NCBI GenBank assembly: GCA_903953565.1
Contig: CAJBKE010000070.1
Location: 1 to 37,649, forward strand
DNA: 37,649 nt
Reading direction: 5' to 3'
Origin: an uncultured Verrucomicrobiota bacterium
GTDB taxonomy: Bacteria; Verrucomicrobiota; Verrucomicrobiia; Chthoniobacterales; JACTMZ01
Shown: positions 25,231 through 36,585 of the stretch, in pieces
Layout: each line of letters opens with the position of its first letter
Numbering within the stretch: position 1 is the stretch's first letter
Translations under genes and position numbers: made by a program
The notes under the pieces: model-generated
The model's input: the letters and a program-made list of their open reading frames with translations, nothing else
Told to the model about the DNA's origin: nothing
Databases searched by the model: none

Positions 25231-25617
25231 CTACGGGAAAAGATCCACCCCGAAACGCTTCGCAATCAATGCGGTGATGACAAAGCAGACAAAGGTGAGC
25301 AGAGCGCACCAGAGCAAGGACCACCAAAAACCGACCCCTTTGTTCAGCAGCCATGGCATGAGCAGGAACATCGGCAACGTCGGGATGACATACCAGAAGG
25401 TGTAGAAAGCGTGATTCGACAGCTTGGACGCGCCCTGCTTTTCGAGGTGCAGCCAGACGAGCACCATGATGGTGACAAAGGGCAACGAGGAAACGAGCGC
25501 ACCGATCCGGTCGCTGCGCTTGGCCAATTCGGAGACCAGCACAATGACAAAGGCGGTCACCGCATACTTCGTGATCAAAAGGGTCACTTGCGGATCATGC
25601 CCTTCGGCCGGAAGCAT
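25231..25617 (-). CDS. DUF3147 family membrane protein
   Basis: 128 residues with four hydrophobic helices. ITKYAVTAFVIVLVSELAKRSDRIGALVSSLP and IMVLVWLHLE match the DUF3147 pattern of a small inner-membrane protein of unknown function. ATG 25617 gives a 10-residue polar leader; a GTG at 25587 (VTLLITKYAV) is equally plausible. It is the last of four minus-strand genes behind the DUF2231 gene, separated by 32 bases. Confidence 0.75.
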   Translation of the reverse strand: MLPAEGHDPQVTLLITKYAVTAFVIVLVSELAKRSDRIGALVSSLPFVTIMVLVWLHLEKQGASKLSNHAFYTFWYVIPTLPMFLLMPWLLNKGVGFWWSLLWCALLTFVCFVITALIAKRFGVDLFP

Positions 25618-25649
25618 TGCAACGACTGCCCGGCAGCGAACTACTGTCC

Positions 25650-26183
25650 TTACTCCTCTTCCTGCTCATCGCCGCCCCGACCGCGTTGCCCGGCGCTTTC
25701 CAACGGCGCGCCGGCCGTTGCTGGTTTTCCCGCCGTTACACCCGCCCCATGACGATAAACAAGTTGTCCGCCGAGGTGCGCGGCCTGGACGACGCAGTAA
25801 GCAGCGCTGAGCGCCGCGATGGCCGAGAGAACGCTGAAGACCCGGCCGGTGAATCCGCGCCTGTCCGCAAAATAGACCGCGATGGCGGCAAGGAACGCGG
25901 CCACGATGCCTGCATTGCGCGCGTTTTCGCCCCACCGCTCGTGGTTCTCGAGCAGACTTTCCGCCGCAGGGACAGCATGCTCGACCTTCTCTTCATCCTC
26001 CTTGCCCGTGTTCACCGCAATAACCGCGCCAACCGCCCCTGCAACGAGGAGCACCGCGGCAAACAGGGGCAAGTTCCAGCGCCTGACAAAAACGGCCATC
26101 ACGGCCATCGCCGCACCGAGCAGCAGAAATGCGATGGGAAAATGAACCGTGGCCGGATGGAGAGGATCGGGAAAAGGAATCAT
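25650..26183 (-). CDS. DUF2231 family membrane protein
   Basis: 177 residues with four hydrophobic helices and an acidic tail. PDPLHPATVHFPIAFLLLGA near the start is the DUF2231 signature, including the conserved HP and HFP histidines; a further His lies in LLENHERWGENA. The histidines in the membrane have led to suggestions of heme or metal binding. I chose ATG 26183 (MIPFPDPLHP), which overlaps the rubrerythrin stop by ATGA; a longer frame would start within the rubrerythrin gene. The tail ends EQEEE. Confidence 0.82.
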   Translation of the reverse strand: MIPFPDPLHPATVHFPIAFLLLGAAMAVMAVFVRRWNLPLFAAVLLVAGAVGAVIAVNTGKEDEEKVEHAVPAAESLLENHERWGENARNAGIVAAFLAAIAVYFADRRGFTGRVFSVLSAIAALSAAYCVVQAAHLGGQLVYRHGAGVTAGKPATAGAPLESAGQRGRGGDEQEEE

Positions 26184-26791
26184 TCCACTTTCTTGTAATT
26201 CATACCCGAACCGCGGCAAACCGAACAAACCGCCGGAACGGCGTCCATAGTGGTCATCCCACACGTCTGGCAAACAAAGTAATCCGCAGCCGGTTTTCCG
26301 CCGAGACGGTTCAGACTCCTTTGGAAGAGACGCGCATGCGCCCTTTCCGATTCGCGCGCGAAACGGAACGCGCGCTCCGCCGCGGGAATTCCCTGGCGGC
26401 GCGCCGTGCGGATGTAGTCTGGATACATCACGCGGCTTTCCTGCTGCTCATCGGCCACCGACTCCGCGAGATTGTCCCGCGTCGATTTCACCTTGGTCTG
26501 CGTGTAGGGCAATTTATCCTGCATGACACCTAAGGTGCGCAGAGCCCGCCGATGGTTGTCGCGGTGGATGGCCTCGGAAAACGCCGCCGCCCGGAATAGT
26601 TTGGCCGCATCAGGATAGCCTTCGCGCATCGCTTGCTTCGCGCATGCTGTGTAGAAACTCGAGGCCTGCGCCTCGCCTCTGTAGGCCGCCTTAAGATTGC
26701 CCACAGTTTCGGGCGCAGCCGGTTGCGGTTGCGCCTGCGCCGTGGCGAGCAGAGCGCAGAGGCCGAGCAGCGTGAAATAATGCGGCTTCAC
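26180..26791 (-). CDS. exported rubrerythrin-like protein
   Basis: 203 residues. A signal peptide (GLCALLATAQA, cleavage near 20) precedes a rubrerythrin four-helix domain: E40 in YRGEAQASSFY, FSEAIHRDNH (Glu, His), ADEQQESRVMY and ESERAHARLF (Glu, Glu, His), matching diiron ligands. A rubredoxin-like C-terminus has VCQTC and VCSVC, two Cys-x2-Cys sites. Rubrerythrins reduce hydrogen peroxide; most are cytoplasmic. The start is GTG 26791. It is coupled to the DUF2231 gene by ATGA and follows the cysteine-rich lipoprotein gene by 43 bases. Confidence 0.9.
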   Translation of the reverse strand: MKPHYFTLLGLCALLATAQAQPQPAAPETVGNLKAAYRGEAQASSFYTACAKQAMREGYPDAAKLFRAAAFSEAIHRDNHRRALRTLGVMQDKLPYTQTKVKSTRDNLAESVADEQQESRVMYPDYIRTARRQGIPAAERAFRFARESERAHARLFQRSLNRLGGKPAADYFVCQTCGMTTMDAVPAVCSVCRGSGMNYKKVE

Positions 26792-26834
26792 GAAGATGTG
26801 TTTGCTTTTGTTTCGATGACTCGCGCGCAGGAGG

Positions 26835-27161
26835 TCAGGAGGACTTTTTCTGCGGAGCCGGACGCAGTTCCACCATGCAGGCGCGCATGCTCTTGCCGCA
26901 TTTAGGGCAGGTTCCCGCCATTTCGCCGGTCGACAAATACTTCCGGGCCATCTCGGAACAATACGGGCAGGCGCGATGCTGATGCGTGGGCCCCATGGTG
27001 AACATACCCGGCTTGCCCGCAGGCGAATCCGACGCCACCCAGACAGATTGGCAACCGGTGCACATCACAGCCTGTCGCTTGGCCAAGGGCGACGACGGAC
27101 ACCACGCAGCGCAGCCCACCAGGAGCAACGACGAAGTAATCAGCAGTATCATCTTTTTCAT
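26835..27161 (-). CDS. cysteine-rich lipoprotein with three Cys-x2-Cys motifs
   Basis: 108 residues starting MKKMILLITSSLLLVGC; the lipobox LVGC gives lipidation at C17. The mature part has CTGC (34-37), CPYC (65-68) and CPKC (85-88), plus HQH (60-62), suggesting a zinc-ribbon or rubredoxin-like metal site. I know no family name. It is the first gene of the run leading to rubrerythrin, DUF2231 and DUF3147. An envelope redox or metal-handling role is inferred from the motifs and the neighbours. Confidence 0.7.
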   Translation of the reverse strand: MKKMILLITSSLLLVGCAAWCPSSPLAKRQAVMCTGCQSVWVASDSPAGKPGMFTMGPTHQHRACPYCSEMARKYLSTGEMAGTCPKCGKSMRACMVELRPAPQKKSS

Positions 27162-28206: not shown

Positions 28207-28395
28207 TCAGGGACGCTCGTTGGAGAACGCCACTTCCTCCCGAACGACCACATTCGCTTTCACGGCCCGCTCGAGGATGAGGATCATGTAACGATGGCGC
28301 GACATGCGGGAGGTTGCCGCCAACTCATCCAAACGCTTGACGGTTTGCGGGGACAATTGAACCGCAATGGCGCGTGTCTTTCTCTCAGTCTTCAC
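28207..28395 (-). CDS. small ribbon-helix-helix DNA-binding protein
   Basis: 62 residues starting at GTG 28395. KTRAIAVQLSPQTVKRLDELAATSRMSRHRYMILILERAV fits a ribbon-helix-helix fold: a short strand, then two helices with the usual Arg/Ser turn. Such proteins bind DNA as dimers and are often antitoxins or small regulators. No toxin gene follows it; the next frame is a convergent exported protein. It is divergent from a second RHH-like gene across 117 bases. Confidence 0.65.
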   Translation of the reverse strand: MKTERKTRAIAVQLSPQTVKRLDELAATSRMSRHRYMILILERAVKANVVVREEVAFSNERP

Positions 28396-29643: not shown

Positions 29644-32607
29644 ATGACTCTGTTGAAGAACAGCCGCAGCACACCGCGGCGCGAGACGGCTCCCGAGAAG
29701 CCCTCCGGCGCTTCGGTCCCGAGCTTCCCCGTGGTGGGGATTGGAGCTTCAGCCGGGGGTTTGGCCGCTTTCGAGGCCTTTTTCGCGGGCCTGCCCGCCG
29801 ACCGGGATCCGGGCATGGCTTTCGTCCTCGTCCAACACCTCGCCCCGGACCACAAAAGCATCCTCGGCGATATCATCCAGCGGTGCACGCGCATGGCAGT
29901 GCATGAAGTGAGCGACGGCATGGTGGTGCAACCGAATTGCACCTACATCATCCCGCCCGGCCACGACATGGCGCTGCTCAATGGAACGCTGCAACTCCTC
30001 AAACCCTCGCCCGCGCGCGGACAACGCCTGCCCATCGATTTTTTCTTCCGCTCACTCGCCCAAGACCAGCGCGAGCGCGCCATCGGCATCATTCTGTCCG
30101 GCACCGGCACCGACGGCACGCTCGGTGTGCGCGCCATCAAAGGCGAGAACGGCCTGGTCATGGCACAGAATCCGGAATCCGCCGAATTCGACGGCATGCC
30201 ACGCAGTGCCATTGGCACGGGTTTGGTCGATTACGTGATGCCGCCGGCGGAAATGCCGGCCAAGTTGATCGCTTACGCCGAGCACCTCACCGGCCGTCCC
30301 CGCCTCGAGACCGTGGCCACGACCGAAACGGAGAATGCCCTGAAGAAACTTTTCGTCCTTCTCCGCACCCAGACCGGCCACGACTTCTCGCTCTACAAAC
30401 CGAGCACGATCAACCGCCGCATCGAGCGCCGCATGGCGCTCCATCAGATCGACCGCCTCGAGTCCTACGTCGCCTACCTCAATACAACCCCCGACGAAGT
30501 CGAAGCCCTTTTCCGCGACCTGCTCATCAACGTGACGCGCTTCTTCCGCGATCCGGAGGCCTTTGCCGTGCTGAACAAGGACGTTATCCCCGGCCTCTTC
30601 GAGCGTCGTCCGCCCGGCGCATCCTTGCGCCTCTGGGTGGTTGGTTGCTCGACCGGGGAGGAGGCCTACTCATTGGCCATCCTTCTCGCCGAGCGCATGG
30701 AGACGCTCAAGCGCAGCACCCCGATCCAGCTCTTCGCCACCGACATCGACAGCCGCGCCATCGCCATGGCCCGCGCCGGAATCTATCCGTCGAGCATCTC
30801 GGTCGATGTCTCGCCGGAACGCCTTGCCCGCTTCTTCACCCTCGATACCGACGGCAGCGTCTACCGCATCAACAAGAGCATCCGCGACATGCTCGTCTTC
30901 TCCGAGCACGACGTGACCAGAGATCCTCCGTTTTCCAAACTCGACCTGATCAGCTGCCGCAATCTCCTCATCTACCTCACGCCCGAACTGCAAAAGAAGG
31001 TCGTGCCGCTTTTCCACTACGCCCTCAATCCGGACGGCGTCCTTCTCCTCGGCAACTCGGAGAGCGTGGGCGAAGCCGCCGCCCTCTTCCGGGCCATCGA
31101 TCAAAAAGCCAAGCTCTACCGCCGCCAAGAATCCGGACTCACCGCACACGGGAAAACGACTTTTCCCCAGGCCTTGTCGGGCGATCGCGTCTTTCCGCAT
31201 CTCCCGCAGACGCCCCGCGGCGCGCCGACGAAAACCCCCGTGCGCGAACTCGTGGAACGAGAACTCCTCGCCCATGCGGCCATGTTCGGTGCGCTGGTCA
31301 ACGCCCGCGGCGACATCTTCTACCTGCACGGACGCACCGGACTCTACCTTGAGCCTTCCACCGGCGAACCTGGCGTCAGCAACATCCTCACCATGGCGCG
31401 CGAAGGACTGCGTCCTGCCGTGACCTCGGCTTTGCGCAAAGCGGCCAAAGGTTCGGCCGCCGTTCATCTGCCGCGCGTGGGCATCGTCGGCAACGCACAT
31501 TCCCTCGAGGCCGACCTCACGGTGCGCCCGGTCGCGGCAGGCAATAAGGACGAACCATCGCTCTTCATGGTTGTTCTCCAGCCGTCGCCGCCGGTCGCCG
31601 AGAAAGCGGTCCGCGCCCGCCGCGGCCACGGCACCGGCATCGCCGCGTTGCGCCGGGAGTTGCAGGCCAAGGAGGAATATCTGCGCAGCGCCAACGAGCA
31701 GCTGCAGAGCGCGACCGAGGGTCTCCAGTCGGCCAACGAGGAAATGCAATCGGTCAACGAGGAGTTGCAATCAACCAACGAGGAGCTCGAGACATCCAAA
31801 GAGGAACTCCAGTCGGTCAACGAAGAACTCAGCACGGTCAACGCCGAACTCCAGAGCAAAGTGCTCGGTCTGACCCAGGCCAACAACGACATGAACAATC
31901 TGCTGGCCGGCACCGGCATCGGCACGGTGTTCGTCGACCAACAACTGCGCATCATGCGCTTTACCCCCGCGGCCAGCACCATCATCAACCTCATCCTCAG
32001 CGACGTCGGACGCCCCGTCTCGCACGTTGTTTCGAATCTCGTCGGCTACGACCGCCTTGTCGCGGACACCATGGAAGTCCTCGACACGCTCGTGCCGAAG
32101 GAAATCGAGGTCCGGACCAACGAGGACAAGTTCTACACCATGCGCATCCAGCCCTACCGCACGCTGGAAAACGTCATCGAGGGCGCCGTCATTTCTTTCG
32201 TCGACATCACCGCCATGGTGCAGACACGCGAGGAACTGCGCAAAGCCAACGACCTCCTCCGCCTCGCCGTCGTTGTCCGCGACGCGCACGATGCCGTCAC
32301 AGTGCAGGACCTCGAGGGCAACACCCGCGCATGGAACCCCGCGGCGTCGCGCATATATGGCTGGAGCGAAGCCGAGGCGCTGCAGATGAATTTCCGCGAC
32401 CGCGTGCCGGTCGAACTGCAAACGCAGGAATTCGACAAATTCCGTCTCCTCGCCCGCGGGGAAGTCTTGCCCGCCTATCCGTCGTCCCGCCGGACCAAAG
32501 ACGCCCGGGTTCTCGACGTCGAGGTCACAGCCACCGCCCTGATCGACGCTTCCGGCCAAGTCTATGCCGTCGCCACAACGGAGCACATCAGGAACAAGAC
32601 CGTATGA
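29644..32607 (+). CDS. CheB-CheR-PAS fusion protein
   Basis: 987 residues. CheB methylesterase (about 30-215): IGASAGGL with its Ser, LVQHLAPDHKS with His, TGTDGT with Asp. CheR methyltransferase (about 230-500): a helical N-domain and the SAM motif VVGCSTGEEAYSLA near 331, then SCRNLLIYL. A coiled coil (about 670-742) of heptads such as NEELQST and NEELSTV joins two PAS domains (about 750-865 and 870-985). It probably methylates or demethylates glutamates on a partner, under PAS control. Relatives often end in a histidine kinase; this one does not. It is coupled to the next gene by ATGA at 32604. Confidence 0.92.
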   Translation: MTLLKNSRSTPRRETAPEKPSGASVPSFPVVGIGASAGGLAAFEAFFAGLPADRDPGMAFVLVQHLAPDHKSILGDIIQRCTRMAVHEVSDGMVVQPNCTYIIPPGHDMALLNGTLQLLKPSPARGQRLPIDFFFRSLAQDQRERAIGIILSGTGTDGTLGVRAIKGENGLVMAQNPESAEFDGMPRSAIGTGLVDYVMPPAEMPAKLIAYAEHLTGRPRLETVATTETENALKKLFVLLRTQTGHDFSLYKPSTINRRIERRMALHQIDRLESYVAYLNTTPDEVEALFRDLLINVTRFFRDPEAFAVLNKDVIPGLFERRPPGASLRLWVVGCSTGEEAYSLAILLAERMETLKRSTPIQLFATDIDSRAIAMARAGIYPSSISVDVSPERLARFFTLDTDGSVYRINKSIRDMLVFSEHDVTRDPPFSKLDLISCRNLLIYLTPELQKKVVPLFHYALNPDGVLLLGNSESVGEAAALFRAIDQKAKLYRRQESGLTAHGKTTFPQALSGDRVFPHLPQTPRGAPTKTPVRELVERELLAHAAMFGALVNARGDIFYLHGRTGLYLEPSTGEPGVSNILTMAREGLRPAVTSALRKAAKGSAAVHLPRVGIVGNAHSLEADLTVRPVAAGNKDEPSLFMVVLQPSPPVAEKAVRARRGHGTGIAALRRELQAKEEYLRSANEQLQSATEGLQSANEEMQSVNEELQSTNEELETSKEELQSVNEELSTVNAELQSKVLGLTQANNDMNNLLAGTGIGTVFVDQQLRIMRFTPAASTIINLILSDVGRPVSHVVSNLVGYDRLVADTMEVLDTLVPKEIEVRTNEDKFYTMRIQPYRTLENVIEGAVISFVDITAMVQTREELRKANDLLRLAVVVRDAHDAVTVQDLEGNTRAWNPAASRIYGWSEAEALQMNFRDRVPVELQTQEFDKFRLLARGEVLPAYPSSRRTKDARVLDVEVTATALIDASGQVYAVATTEHIRNKTV

Positions 32608-34811
32608 GCACGCCGCCGGAAGACCAAGCTGCCGTTCTGCGCCACCGCGCGGAAGCCGCGGTGGCCAAGATGACCAACCCTCTCCGCCCCGGCGCCGATG
32701 CGGAGCAGACACTGCACGAACTCCTCGTGCACCAAGTCGAATTGGAAATGCAAAACGAGGAACTGCGCCGCCTGCAGGCCTCCATCGACGTCGAACGCGC
32801 GCGCTACTTCGAACTCTTCGACCTCGCCCCCGTCGGCTACATCACGCTCGACGACCACAACATCATCCTTGAAGCCAACCTCACCGCGGCCCACCTGCTC
32901 GCAATGCCCCGCGAAGAGCTTGCCAAGCTTCCGCTCGGCCGCGTCATTCTTCCGGATGATCAGGACATCTTTTATCTGACGAGGAAGAAACTCCTGGCCG
33001 ACGGCGCGGCGCAGACCTGCGAACTGCGCCTGCTCAAGTCGGACGGCTCGTTTTTCTGGGCCCGTTTCGAGGTGATCCCGGCGGCACGAGACGGCGATCA
33101 AGGAGACTTCTGCCGCATCTCCATCACCGACATCACCGATAAGGTGAAGATCCGCCAAGACCTCACCCGGCGCGAGCAGGAATACCGCCTGCTCGCCGAG
33201 AACGCCTCCGACGTCGTCTTCCGCAGCAGTATGGAAGGCCTCATCGAGTGGGTCACCCCGTCGGTGAGCGTCCGCACCGGATGGACGCCCGAGCAACTCG
33301 TCGGCCGGCAACTCCGCGACCTTGTCCATCCCGACGATACCGACCGTCTGGCCGCGGCCCAGGCCGGACTAAAGGACGGCATCGGCTTCGAGATCGAACT
33401 GCGCATCCGCATCCGCACTGACGGCTACCACTGGTTCTCCGTCAGCATACGCCCGGCCCTCGACGATGCCGGCACCGTCACCCACCTCGTCGGCGGCTGG
33501 CAGGACATCCAGAGCATGGTGCAAGCCCGCGCCGCCTTGGAAATGGAGCGCGCCCGCCTGCGCGCCACCTTGGATTCGCTCCTCGACCCCCACGTCATGC
33601 TCGAGGCGGTGCGCAACAAACAAGGACGCATCGTCGACTTCGTCTACGCCGATGCCAACGAGGCCGCCTGCCAATACAACAAAATGGAACGCGCCCGACT
33701 CGTTGGCCGGCGCCTGCTCGAACTGCTCCCCGCCCACACCTCCTCGGGACTGCTCGACATGTATCGCCACGCCCTCGAGACCGACCAACCGCTCGTCCTC
33801 AACGATTTTGTCTACCCCCATGAAATCCTTGCCCAGGATCGGCGCTTTGACATTCGGGCCATACGCGTCGGCGACGCCCTCAGCTTCACCTGGCGCGACG
33901 TCACCGACCGTTATCTCCTCACGCAGAAACTGGCCGCCTCCGAGGAACACTACCGCCTGCTGACCACCAACTCTTATGACACCGCCATCCGGATCGACGA
34001 CGTGGGCAAGGTCACCTGGGTCTCTCCCTCGATCAAAGCCCTGCTCGGCTGGGATCCCGGGGAATGGATCGGCCGGCCCATCGCCGACTTCGTCACCCCC
34101 GAATCCCTGCCCACACTCCGCACCAACCTGGAACGCGTGGTCCATGGCGAGCCCGTCGTGGCCCGCTACCTGGCACTGGCCAAAGATGGGACCGCCCACT
34201 GGGCCGAAAGCCGCGCCATGCCCTACATCAACGCGCAAGACCACCGCGACGGCGTGATCGCCGCCTTCCATCTCATCGACGAACAGGTCGCCATGGAACA
34301 GAAATTGGAACAACGCGCCCGCACCGATGAACTGACCAGCCTGCTCAACCGCAAGGAAGTCTTCGAACGCATCGAAGCCTACGGCGGCAAACACCCGCGC
34401 ACCGGACAAGCCATCGCCGTCCTTTTCTGCGACATGGACAAATTCAAAATCGTCAACGACACCTACGGCCACGCCGCCGGTGACGAGGTTTTGCGCGTCA
34501 TGGCCGACCGCATCCGCCACTTCCTGCGCAGCACCGACGACCTCGGTGCCCGCGTCGGCGGCGACGAACTCCTCGTCGTCCTCCACGGCGTGCACGATCT
34601 GCAAAATGCCGTGGCCATCGCCGAGAAGCTGCGCCTCTCCGCCGCCAAACCCATTGCCGTCCCCGCAGGCACGATCCGCACCACGGTCAGCATCGGCGTC
34701 ACCCTCGCCCGGCCCGGCGAAAAAACCGAAGCCCTCATCGCCCGCGCCGACGAAGCGATGTATCGCGCAAAGCAAAGAGGCCGCAACCAAGTCATCACCA
34801 TCGAAACCTAA
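32604..34811 (+). CDS. multi-PAS diguanylate cyclase (GGDEL)
   Basis: 735 residues, cytoplasmic. A coiled coil (about 30-70) precedes four PAS-like domains: about 70-190 (FELFDLAPVGYITLDD), 190-310 (WVTPSVSVRTGWTPEQ), 318-445 (LDSLLDPHVMLEA) and 445-565. The GGDEF domain (about 570-735) has DMDKFKIVNDTYGHAAGDEVL and GGDEL at about 652, so it should make cyclic di-GMP, though Leu replaces the usual Phe. The RxxD inhibitory-site region is shifted by one residue. PAS3-GGDEF closely resemble the next cyclase gene. Confidence 0.9.
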   Translation: MSTPPEDQAAVLRHRAEAAVAKMTNPLRPGADAEQTLHELLVHQVELEMQNEELRRLQASIDVERARYFELFDLAPVGYITLDDHNIILEANLTAAHLLAMPREELAKLPLGRVILPDDQDIFYLTRKKLLADGAAQTCELRLLKSDGSFFWARFEVIPAARDGDQGDFCRISITDITDKVKIRQDLTRREQEYRLLAENASDVVFRSSMEGLIEWVTPSVSVRTGWTPEQLVGRQLRDLVHPDDTDRLAAAQAGLKDGIGFEIELRIRIRTDGYHWFSVSIRPALDDAGTVTHLVGGWQDIQSMVQARAALEMERARLRATLDSLLDPHVMLEAVRNKQGRIVDFVYADANEAACQYNKMERARLVGRRLLELLPAHTSSGLLDMYRHALETDQPLVLNDFVYPHEILAQDRRFDIRAIRVGDALSFTWRDVTDRYLLTQKLAASEEHYRLLTTNSYDTAIRIDDVGKVTWVSPSIKALLGWDPGEWIGRPIADFVTPESLPTLRTNLERVVHGEPVVARYLALAKDGTAHWAESRAMPYINAQDHRDGVIAAFHLIDEQVAMEQKLEQRARTDELTSLLNRKEVFERIEAYGGKHPRTGQAIAVLFCDMDKFKIVNDTYGHAAGDEVLRVMADRIRHFLRSTDDLGARVGGDELLVVLHGVHDLQNAVAIAEKLRLSAAKPIAVPAGTIRTTVSIGVTLARPGEKTEALIARADEAMYRAKQRGRNQVITIET

Positions 34812-35041
34812 GGGGCCCGCCGCCCTATGTATCGTCGCCCGTTAGTCCTGCTTTTGTAGCGGCGGTCTATGACCGTCGGTGCCTCTTAGAGATGCATGTT
34901 CCGGCGGACATAGTCCGCCGCTACAAAATCACTCAGGTTTCAGGTCTCAGCCTTCAGCCCTCTCTTTGCTCCCCGCTCCTCCCTCTGGGCAAAACACCCT
35001 ACAGATACCCCGATCGCCCGCGGCCTATACTCATCGCCGTT
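34812..35041. other. 230-base spacer between the two cyclase genes
   Basis: It holds the nested palindrome at 34852-34928 and a C/T-rich stretch. TGCTCCCCGCTCC at 34967-34979 also occurs at 29311-29323. No gene is seen. It separates the two cyclase genes, so transcription through it is uncertain. Confidence 0.6.
34852..34928. repeat. composite palindrome with 14-bp arms
   Basis: Arms TTTTGTAGCGGCGG (34852-34865) and CCGCCGCTACAAAA (34915-34928) are perfect. Inside, GGCGGAC-ATA-GTCCGCC (34903-34919) is a perfect hairpin, and GGCGGTC-TAT-GACCGTC (34861-34877) is near-perfect. The A/T run at the end makes it a possible terminator. Confidence 0.8.
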
Positions 35042-35233
35042 ATGACCATGAAAGCCATGCATGACGAACTGCGCGATCTTCACGCGGTTCGCTTTGCCGA
35101 GATTTCCGCCCTGCGCGAAATGCTCGTCGATGCCGGGTCCGGCACGCACTCCGCGGATATCGCCGGTCGCATGCGCGACTCGGTAACGGAAATCCTCCGC
35201 CTGCAGAGAATGATCACTCTGATCGAAGAATAA
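35042..35233 (+). CDS. small helical protein of the cyclase locus
   Basis: 63 residues, Met-rich start (MTMKAMHDEL), with two helices (LRDLHAVRFAEISALREMLVD, split here as LRDLHAVRFAEIS and ALREMLVD; and RMRDSVTEILRLQRMITLIEE near the end). It has no known domain. It ends 5 bases before the second cyclase gene and is likely co-transcribed. A role as a coiled-coil partner is a guess. Confidence 0.6.
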   Translation: MTMKAMHDELRDLHAVRFAEISALREMLVDAGSGTHSADIAGRMRDSVTEILRLQRMITLIEE

Positions 35234-35238
35234 GTCTT

Positions 35239-36585
35239 ATGGACCTCGTCATGGAACCCGCCGTCGACACCGCGACAGACTCCGATCCGCATCCGCAAAT
35301 CCCGGCGCGGGTCATCCTCGACTCGCTGCTCGATCCGCATTTCATCCTCGCCCCGCGGCGCGACGGCGCCGGCAAGATCACCGACTTCACCATCGTCGAT
35401 GCGAACGTCGCCGCCGCCGAATACTACAATCTCGAGCGCGATACCATGCCCGGCCGGCGACTGCTCGAGTTCCTGCCAGCCGACAATGCGGGCGCGCTCA
35501 TGGCCAGGGCGCGCGATGCGCACGAGTCCGGCGAACCACTCGTGGTCAACAACTACCCCTTCGCTCTCGAGATCTACGGACAGGAACGCCGGTTCGATAT
35601 CCGCGCCGTGCGCATCGACGACGAGATCCTCTGGACCTGGCGCGATGTCACCGAGCGCCATCTCGCCGCCAAACGCCTCGCCGCCTCCGAAGAGCGCTAC
35701 CGGTTGCTCGCCGAGAACTCCTCCGACGTTGTCACCCGCATCCGCCTCGGCACCATCCAATGGATATCTCCCTCCGTGACCCCGACCTTCGGCTACACCG
35801 TCGAAGAATGCACGGGGCGGCTGGCCTCGGACTTTCTCGAGGACAACGATCGCGCCACCTGCGCTGGCTACATGAAGCAACTCGAGGTCGGGCGGCACGT
35901 CCGGGCTCGCAAAATTGTGCGGGCCAAGGATGGCACGCGTCACTGGATCGAAACGCACGCCAGCCCCTATTTCGACTCCGGCGGAAAGGTCGATGGCCTC
36001 GTCGCCACCAGCCGCATCGTCGATGCCCAGGTCGCCGCGGAACAACTGCTGGAGCACCGCGCCCGCACGGACGAACTCACCGAACTGCTCACCCGGAAGG
36101 AAGCGCTCAACCGCATCGAAACACTGGGAGCGAAAACCCGCCGGTCAGGGAGCGAGCTGGCTGTGCTTTTCTGTGATCTCGACCGCTTCAAGGAAATCAA
36201 CGACATCCACGGGCATGCCGCCGGCGACGAAGTCCTGCGCGTGACGGCCAGCCGCCTGCGCGAGGTCCTGCGCACGAGCGACGACCTCGCCGCGCGAATC
36301 GGCGGGGACGAACTCCTCGTCGTGCTCCACGGAGTCCGCGACATGGACGATGCCGTATCCATTGCCGAAAAACTCCGTGGCGCCGCAGCGCAACCCGTTT
36401 CCACCGCGACCGGTCCGGTCACCGCGACGCTCAGCATCGGCGTCACCCTCGCGCACCCCGACGAATCTACCGATGAGCTCGTCGCCCGCGCGGACACCGC
36501 GATGTATCAGGCGAAACAGTCCGGCCGCAACCGCGTCGTCCCTTTCAATGGTCAGCCCGCACTCTCACCTTCCTTGCTGCTATGA
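35239..36585 (+). CDS. PAS-PAS diguanylate cyclase (GGDEL), paralogue of the upstream gene
   Basis: 448 residues. PAS-a (about 22-155: LDSLLDPHFILAPRRD, ERRFDIRAVRIDDE), PAS-b (about 155-275: IQWISPSVTPTFGYT) and GGDEF (about 280-440: DLDRFKEINDIHGHAAGDEVL, GGDEL at about 355). It matches the C-terminal three domains of the upstream cyclase along its length. It lacks an I-site of normal spacing and has the same Phe-to-Leu change. The ATGA overlap (36582-36585) joins the histidine kinase gene. Confidence 0.9.
   Translation: MDLVMEPAVDTATDSDPHPQIPARVILDSLLDPHFILAPRRDGAGKITDFTIVDANVAAAEYYNLERDTMPGRRLLEFLPADNAGALMARARDAHESGEPLVVNNYPFALEIYGQERRFDIRAVRIDDEILWTWRDVTERHLAAKRLAASEERYRLLAENSSDVVTRIRLGTIQWISPSVTPTFGYTVEECTGRLASDFLEDNDRATCAGYMKQLEVGRHVRARKIVRAKDGTRHWIETHASPYFDSGGKVDGLVATSRIVDAQVAAEQLLEHRARTDELTELLTRKEALNRIETLGAKTRRSGSELAVLFCDLDRFKEINDIHGHAAGDEVLRVTASRLREVLRTSDDLAARIGGDELLVVLHGVRDMDDAVSIAEKLRGAAAQPVSTATGPVTATLSIGVTLAHPDESTDELVARADTAMYQAKQSGRNRVVPFNGQPALSPSLLL

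Follow-up and report, generated by a model that had tools for sequence, protein, structure and literature searches.

Rubrerythrins that carry a predicted export signal are, across the phylum Verrucomicrobiota, nearly always encoded beside a membrane protein, and on balance we favour the view that the two form an envelope system in which a periplasmic rubrerythrin-type peroxide reductase would be fed electrons through its membrane partner. The combination of an exported rubrerythrin and an adjoining membrane protein gene suggests a little-known peroxide defence outside the cytoplasm. Our starting point was a stretch of 37,649 nucleotides from an uncultured member of this phylum (contig CAJBKE010000070.1, here called the window), for which the original prediction had proposed an envelope electron path involving a lipoprotein, an exported rubrerythrin, a DUF2231 protein and a ‘DUF3147’ protein. 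The idea of such a path gained strength from our analysis, both from the pairing described above and from one clade in which the partner has the domains of an electron conduit, but the four-membered chain did not survive, since its outer genes are unlinked to rubrerythrin in the other genomes examined and the lipoprotein has a paralog elsewhere.

The four genes are present as predicted, as close-packed open reading frames that are all encoded on the minus strand. In the order of transcription they specify the lipoprotein (27161-26835), the rubrerythrin (26791-26180; 203 amino acids from a GTG start), the DUF2231 membrane protein (26183-25650) and a small membrane protein (25617-25231). The first two are separated by 43 nt and the last two by 32 nt, while the rubrerythrin stop and the DUF2231 start share a 4-nt overlap, ATGA. 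A promoter scan returned nothing above chance. Elsewhere in the window, positions 28207-28395 encode a small CopG-type ribbon-helix-helix protein that scores slightly below the Pfam cut-off, and positions 29644-36585 hold a signalling cluster composed of a CheB-CheR-PAS protein and, after it, two PAS-GGDEF proteins.

The identity of the second gene product as a rubrerythrin with a signal peptide was borne out. The protein matches the Pfam Rubrerythrin family (PF02915 superfamily) with 88.2 bits at a cut-off of 22.8, and PDB rubrerythrins match it with an E value of 5e-21, but it stays below the cut-offs of the NCBIfam equivalogs NF045767 (73.7 against 200 bits) and NF045783 (84.3 against 340 bits). 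Its N-terminus reads MKPHYFTLLGLCALLATAQA followed by Q, a predicted Sec signal peptide with an AxA site that would span residues 1-20 (26732-26791, minus strand) and be cut after AQA, whereas cytoplasmic homologs start directly at the ferritin-like domain; here and in the relatives, signal peptides were called by a hydropathy rule together with reading of the start regions and not by a trained predictor. Alignment places all seven di-iron ligands (E40, E73, H76, E115, E118, E149 and H152) in the ferritin-like domain (26318-26698, minus strand). The rubredoxin-like domain (26207-26278, minus strand) gives a weak RUBY_RBDX profile match of 17 bits at a cut-off of 26.5, and its four cysteines, C174, C177, C189 and C192, are in register with those of solved rubrerythrins.

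One scan of genome contigs returned only an archaeal cytoplasmic rubrerythrin. The search for the rubrerythrin covered 57 relatives as well as 387 genomes from the phylum, and the neighbourhoods were retrieved and scored. The pairing of rubrerythrin with DUF2231 is found again in a congener and more widely in the class (window, L037, L039, L042-L044, L143, L148 and L150), and the two genes are often followed, as at L037, L042, L043, L044 and L150, by a response regulator gene of the OmpR type and a histidine kinase gene. Two loci, L045 and L046, show a different order, namely DUF2231, regulator, kinase and rubrerythrin. Thus, of the predicted gene order the central pair is conserved in other genomes and the arrangement of all four genes is not.

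We rejected a conserved four-gene operon because homologs of the lipoprotein and of the small membrane protein lie elsewhere, and in no other locus examined was either of them found beside rubrerythrin. The lipoprotein has a lipobox (LLLVGC, C17) and, as foreseen, three Cys-x2-Cys pairs (34/37, 65/68 and 85/88), which are invariant among its homologs. It matched no family above the cut-off, and its structure model (pLDDT 76) gave no structural match. Its homologs either adjoin a phospholipid-methyltransferase-like gene or sit in other places away from rubrerythrin, and the paralog lies on another contig of the window genome. Within the genus, this three-CxxC lipoprotein family recurs beside the phospholipid-methyltransferase-like gene at L102-L106, in some cases with a transglutaminase-like proteinase nearby. 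For the small membrane protein, the label ‘DUF3147’ had to be replaced: no Pfam model of that name matched at E<=1, and the protein instead belongs to the PRK09272-type hypothetical proteins (NCBIfam NF006751, 165 bits at a cut-off of 154). Its homologs, 84-90% identical, have different gene neighbourhoods, and two of them lie near the end of a contig. The lipoprotein and the PRK09272-type gene are local neighbours only and stand outside the conserved system.

Exported rubrerythrins without DUF2231 mostly adjoin a second type of partner, a protein of about 446 residues that combines the domains Ferric_reduct, FAD_binding_8 and NAD_binding_1. Homologs of this partner lie beside or near an exported rubrerythrin at L047-L052, L054, L055, L057, L058, L066 and others; at L058 the gene is convergent with rubrerythrin and not downstream of it. 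Histidines 83, 97, 161 and 174 are invariant in all 8 of the partners that were aligned; two-heme NOX/MsrQ proteins show the same pattern, four such histidines being a criterion for them (PMC5676040). At L050 and L066, lipoprotein rubrerythrins occur with an MsrQ-like partner that consists of the heme domain only; the L050 partner has no Pfam match and was assigned by alignment. The window genome contains no match to Ferric_reduct (PF01794), and the partner in the window is DUF2231. In the tree, exported rubrerythrins with the ferric-reductase-type partner form one clade (support 100/98) and most DUF2231-linked rubrerythrins another (84/95), with L045 and L046 standing apart.

Within this one phylum, and in draws centred on the rubrerythrin (RBR), a membrane partner was found nearby for 23 of the 26 evaluable exported rubrerythrins as against none of the 38 that lack a signal peptide, a contrast whose Fisher p value of about 2e-14 is inflated by shared ancestry. 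These counts were assembled by hand, and a few of the unexported genes lie near contig ends. L039 and L058 were scored as exported by eye (from MKAYLLIAVLGCLALVNAQ and MKHLIAGITVAMAAFCFQLTSAQA, respectively) against the automatic rule, and the truncated L041 and L151, the loci found via DUF2231, and L071 (exported, at a contig end, and so not evaluable) were left out. Three genomes, G040, G177 and G154, carry both kinds of rubrerythrin, and in these the partner lies only beside the exported one. The three exported rubrerythrins that have neither partner in the range examined are L038, L178 and L191. The first of them comes from a congener without DUF2231 pairing and lies about 150 bases from a convergent gene whose product is an AhpC/TSA peroxiredoxin that appears to carry a signal peptide (L038:5390-5914).

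The DUF2231 protein was correctly described as a histidine-bearing member of its family (PF09990, 54.5 bits at a cut-off of 26.4): H9, H14 and H81 are invariant in 24/24 aligned sequences, and H136 and H145 are kept in 18 of the 24. An AlphaFold2 model (pLDDT 86) consists of four helices; loops 1-2 and 3-4 hold the basic residues and the opposite side the acidic ones. Since the basic loops lie on the other side from the histidines, the positive-inside rule predicts that the histidines face the periplasm. Distant members of the family are fused to a Rieske domain (L160:5211-6023) or to a planctomycete-type cytochrome c domain (L157:3238-4071). Histidines, topology and fusions suit a role in electron transfer, which they do not prove. 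A Foldseek search with the model returned nothing at E<=0.001, and we did not take as evidence the VIA-align list, which comprised generic helical bundles along with some respiratory proteins (cytochrome oxidases, CcmF). No plasmid-borne relatives of DUF2231 were found, and only one, weak, of rubrerythrin. A second DUF2231 subfamily exists within the genus of the window (L152-L155), two members of which (L153 and L154) adjoin genes that by eye resemble argC and argJ.

An export signal sets the window protein apart from almost every rubrerythrin described so far; these enzymes have been studied in the cytoplasm, with soluble rubredoxin or NAD(P)H reductases as their reductants. A periplasmic rubrerythrin would need another source of electrons, and the neighbouring genes suggest two candidates. 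In the system that we favour, the rubrerythrin would reach the periplasm by way of Sec or, in some relatives, be tethered there as a lipoprotein, and the integral membrane protein encoded nearby would provide its electron supply. Electrons would enter through the rubrerythrin's own rubredoxin domain, and hydrogen peroxide, presumably the substrate, possibly along with O2, would be reduced at the di-iron site. In one clade, the NOX/ferric-reductase-type partner would take electrons from NAD(P)H in the cytoplasm and deliver them, by way of FAD and two b hemes, at the periplasmic side. In the clade of the window, DUF2231 occupies the partner slot and, as the putative donor, would probably convey membrane electrons, perhaps from quinol, to a putative histidine-bound cofactor that faces the periplasm. 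We put forward only tentatively the further proposal that DUF2231 represents a novel type of membrane protein for electron transfer with a periplasm-facing, histidine-ligated cofactor, which would reduce the exported rubrerythrin and functionally replace the NOX/MsrQ-type partner.

The same genes could also be read as a system for envelope iron or metal handling, in which the exported rubrerythrin would be a ferritin-like iron binder or ferroxidase, DUF2231 a metal-binding membrane protein, and the two-component genes a metal- or redox-sensing control acting together with a P1B-4-type efflux ATPase. P1B-type ATPases with SPC and HEGST motifs do lie next to or near the DUF2231 loci L144 and L039, the kinase has histidines in its short periplasmic part, and the window rubrerythrin shows weak similarity to the iron exporter MbfA. 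A further, degenerate P1B-type ATPase lies between DUF2231 and the two-component genes at L149 (2699-4408); with NQTGT in place of DKTGT and no HEG motif, this protein is possibly inactive. However, linkage to an ATPase is confined to few loci, the rubredoxin domain has been kept although it would be superfluous in a pure iron binder, and in the sister clade the NOX-type partner is built from electron-conduit and not transporter domains, so we regard metal handling as unlikely.

Some loci have DUF2231 but no rubrerythrin (L142, L144-L147 and L149), in several cases with a regulator and a kinase alongside (L144, L145, L147 and L149), and the primary role of DUF2231 may therefore differ from the one considered here. 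This distribution would fit an arrangement in which the exported rubrerythrin is active with another periplasmic donor and DUF2231 serves as a sensor or accessory of the two-component system, outside the electron path. Against this stand the Rieske and cytochrome c fusions and the loci at which the kinase was not found nearby (window, L039 and L143), yet rubrerythrin and DUF2231 stay together, and we hold this alternative to be improbable.

The window copy itself may be specialised or decaying, given its long branch in the tree (1.44), two changes at otherwise invariant positions (G114D and A159S) and the absence from the window genome of the two-component kinase seen at related loci. That it is decaying outright, with the two-component system gone, the rubrerythrin evolving fast and little function left, would agree with its identity of 38-40% to congeners that are 65% identical to each other and with damaged copies in relatives (L041:6092-7156, with a rubrerythrin lacking its start, a shortened DUF2231 and a regulator without receiver; L151:5381-5623, where the match to rubrerythrin is limited to its 3' part), but is very improbable, as the reading frames are intact and overlapping and 11/11 metal ligands are kept compared with 47/89 (53%) of the other sites common to three near relatives. 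To judge from its sequence, the rubrerythrin is likely functional, though its function is possibly altered.

Several known systems share elements with the one favoured here. Like rubrerythrin and nigerythrin of Desulfovibrio and Pyrococcus, the window protein joins a di-iron ferritin-like domain to a rubredoxin-like domain with the same ligands; unlike them, it has a signal peptide and a membrane partner encoded next door, and it scores far below the cut-offs of the NCBIfam equivalogs. The Sor/rubrerythrin system of delta-proteobacteria has been described as cytoplasmic (PMC545781). MsrQ-like proteins act as electron donors to periplasmic enzymes (PMC8238504, PMC5676040), and MsrPQ, in which a methionine sulfoxide reductase of the periplasm is joined with the heme-bearing membrane protein MsrQ, resembles the proposed system in combining an exported reductase with a ferric-reductase-type membrane donor, the heme-only partners at L050 and L066 having the layout of MsrQ. 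However, the periplasmic enzyme of MsrPQ is a molybdoprotein and here it is a rubrerythrin, and the partner in the window, DUF2231, is unrelated by Pfam. With the bacterial NOX protein SpNOX, the partner in the relatives shares the Ferric_reduct, FAD and NAD domains and the four conserved histidines, but it probably donates to the protein encoded next to it and not to O2, and it is absent from the window genome. Ferriperoxin of Hydrogenobacter resembles rubrerythrin and acts as a peroxidase that depends on a ferredoxin:NADPH reductase for its supply, but it has no rubredoxin domain, and the paper describing it mentions neither a signal nor the periplasm (PMC3317640). We found no literature on exported or periplasmic rubrerythrins, alone or with such partners, or on the function of DUF2231, a weak negative as subscription journals were thinly covered.

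If the proposed system is right, it would extend the rubrerythrins to defence of the envelope, in parallel to MsrPQ, and would give DUF2231 a testable function. Should the more tentative reading of DUF2231 also be true, two unrelated membrane donors would serve one new family of periplasmic peroxide reductases.
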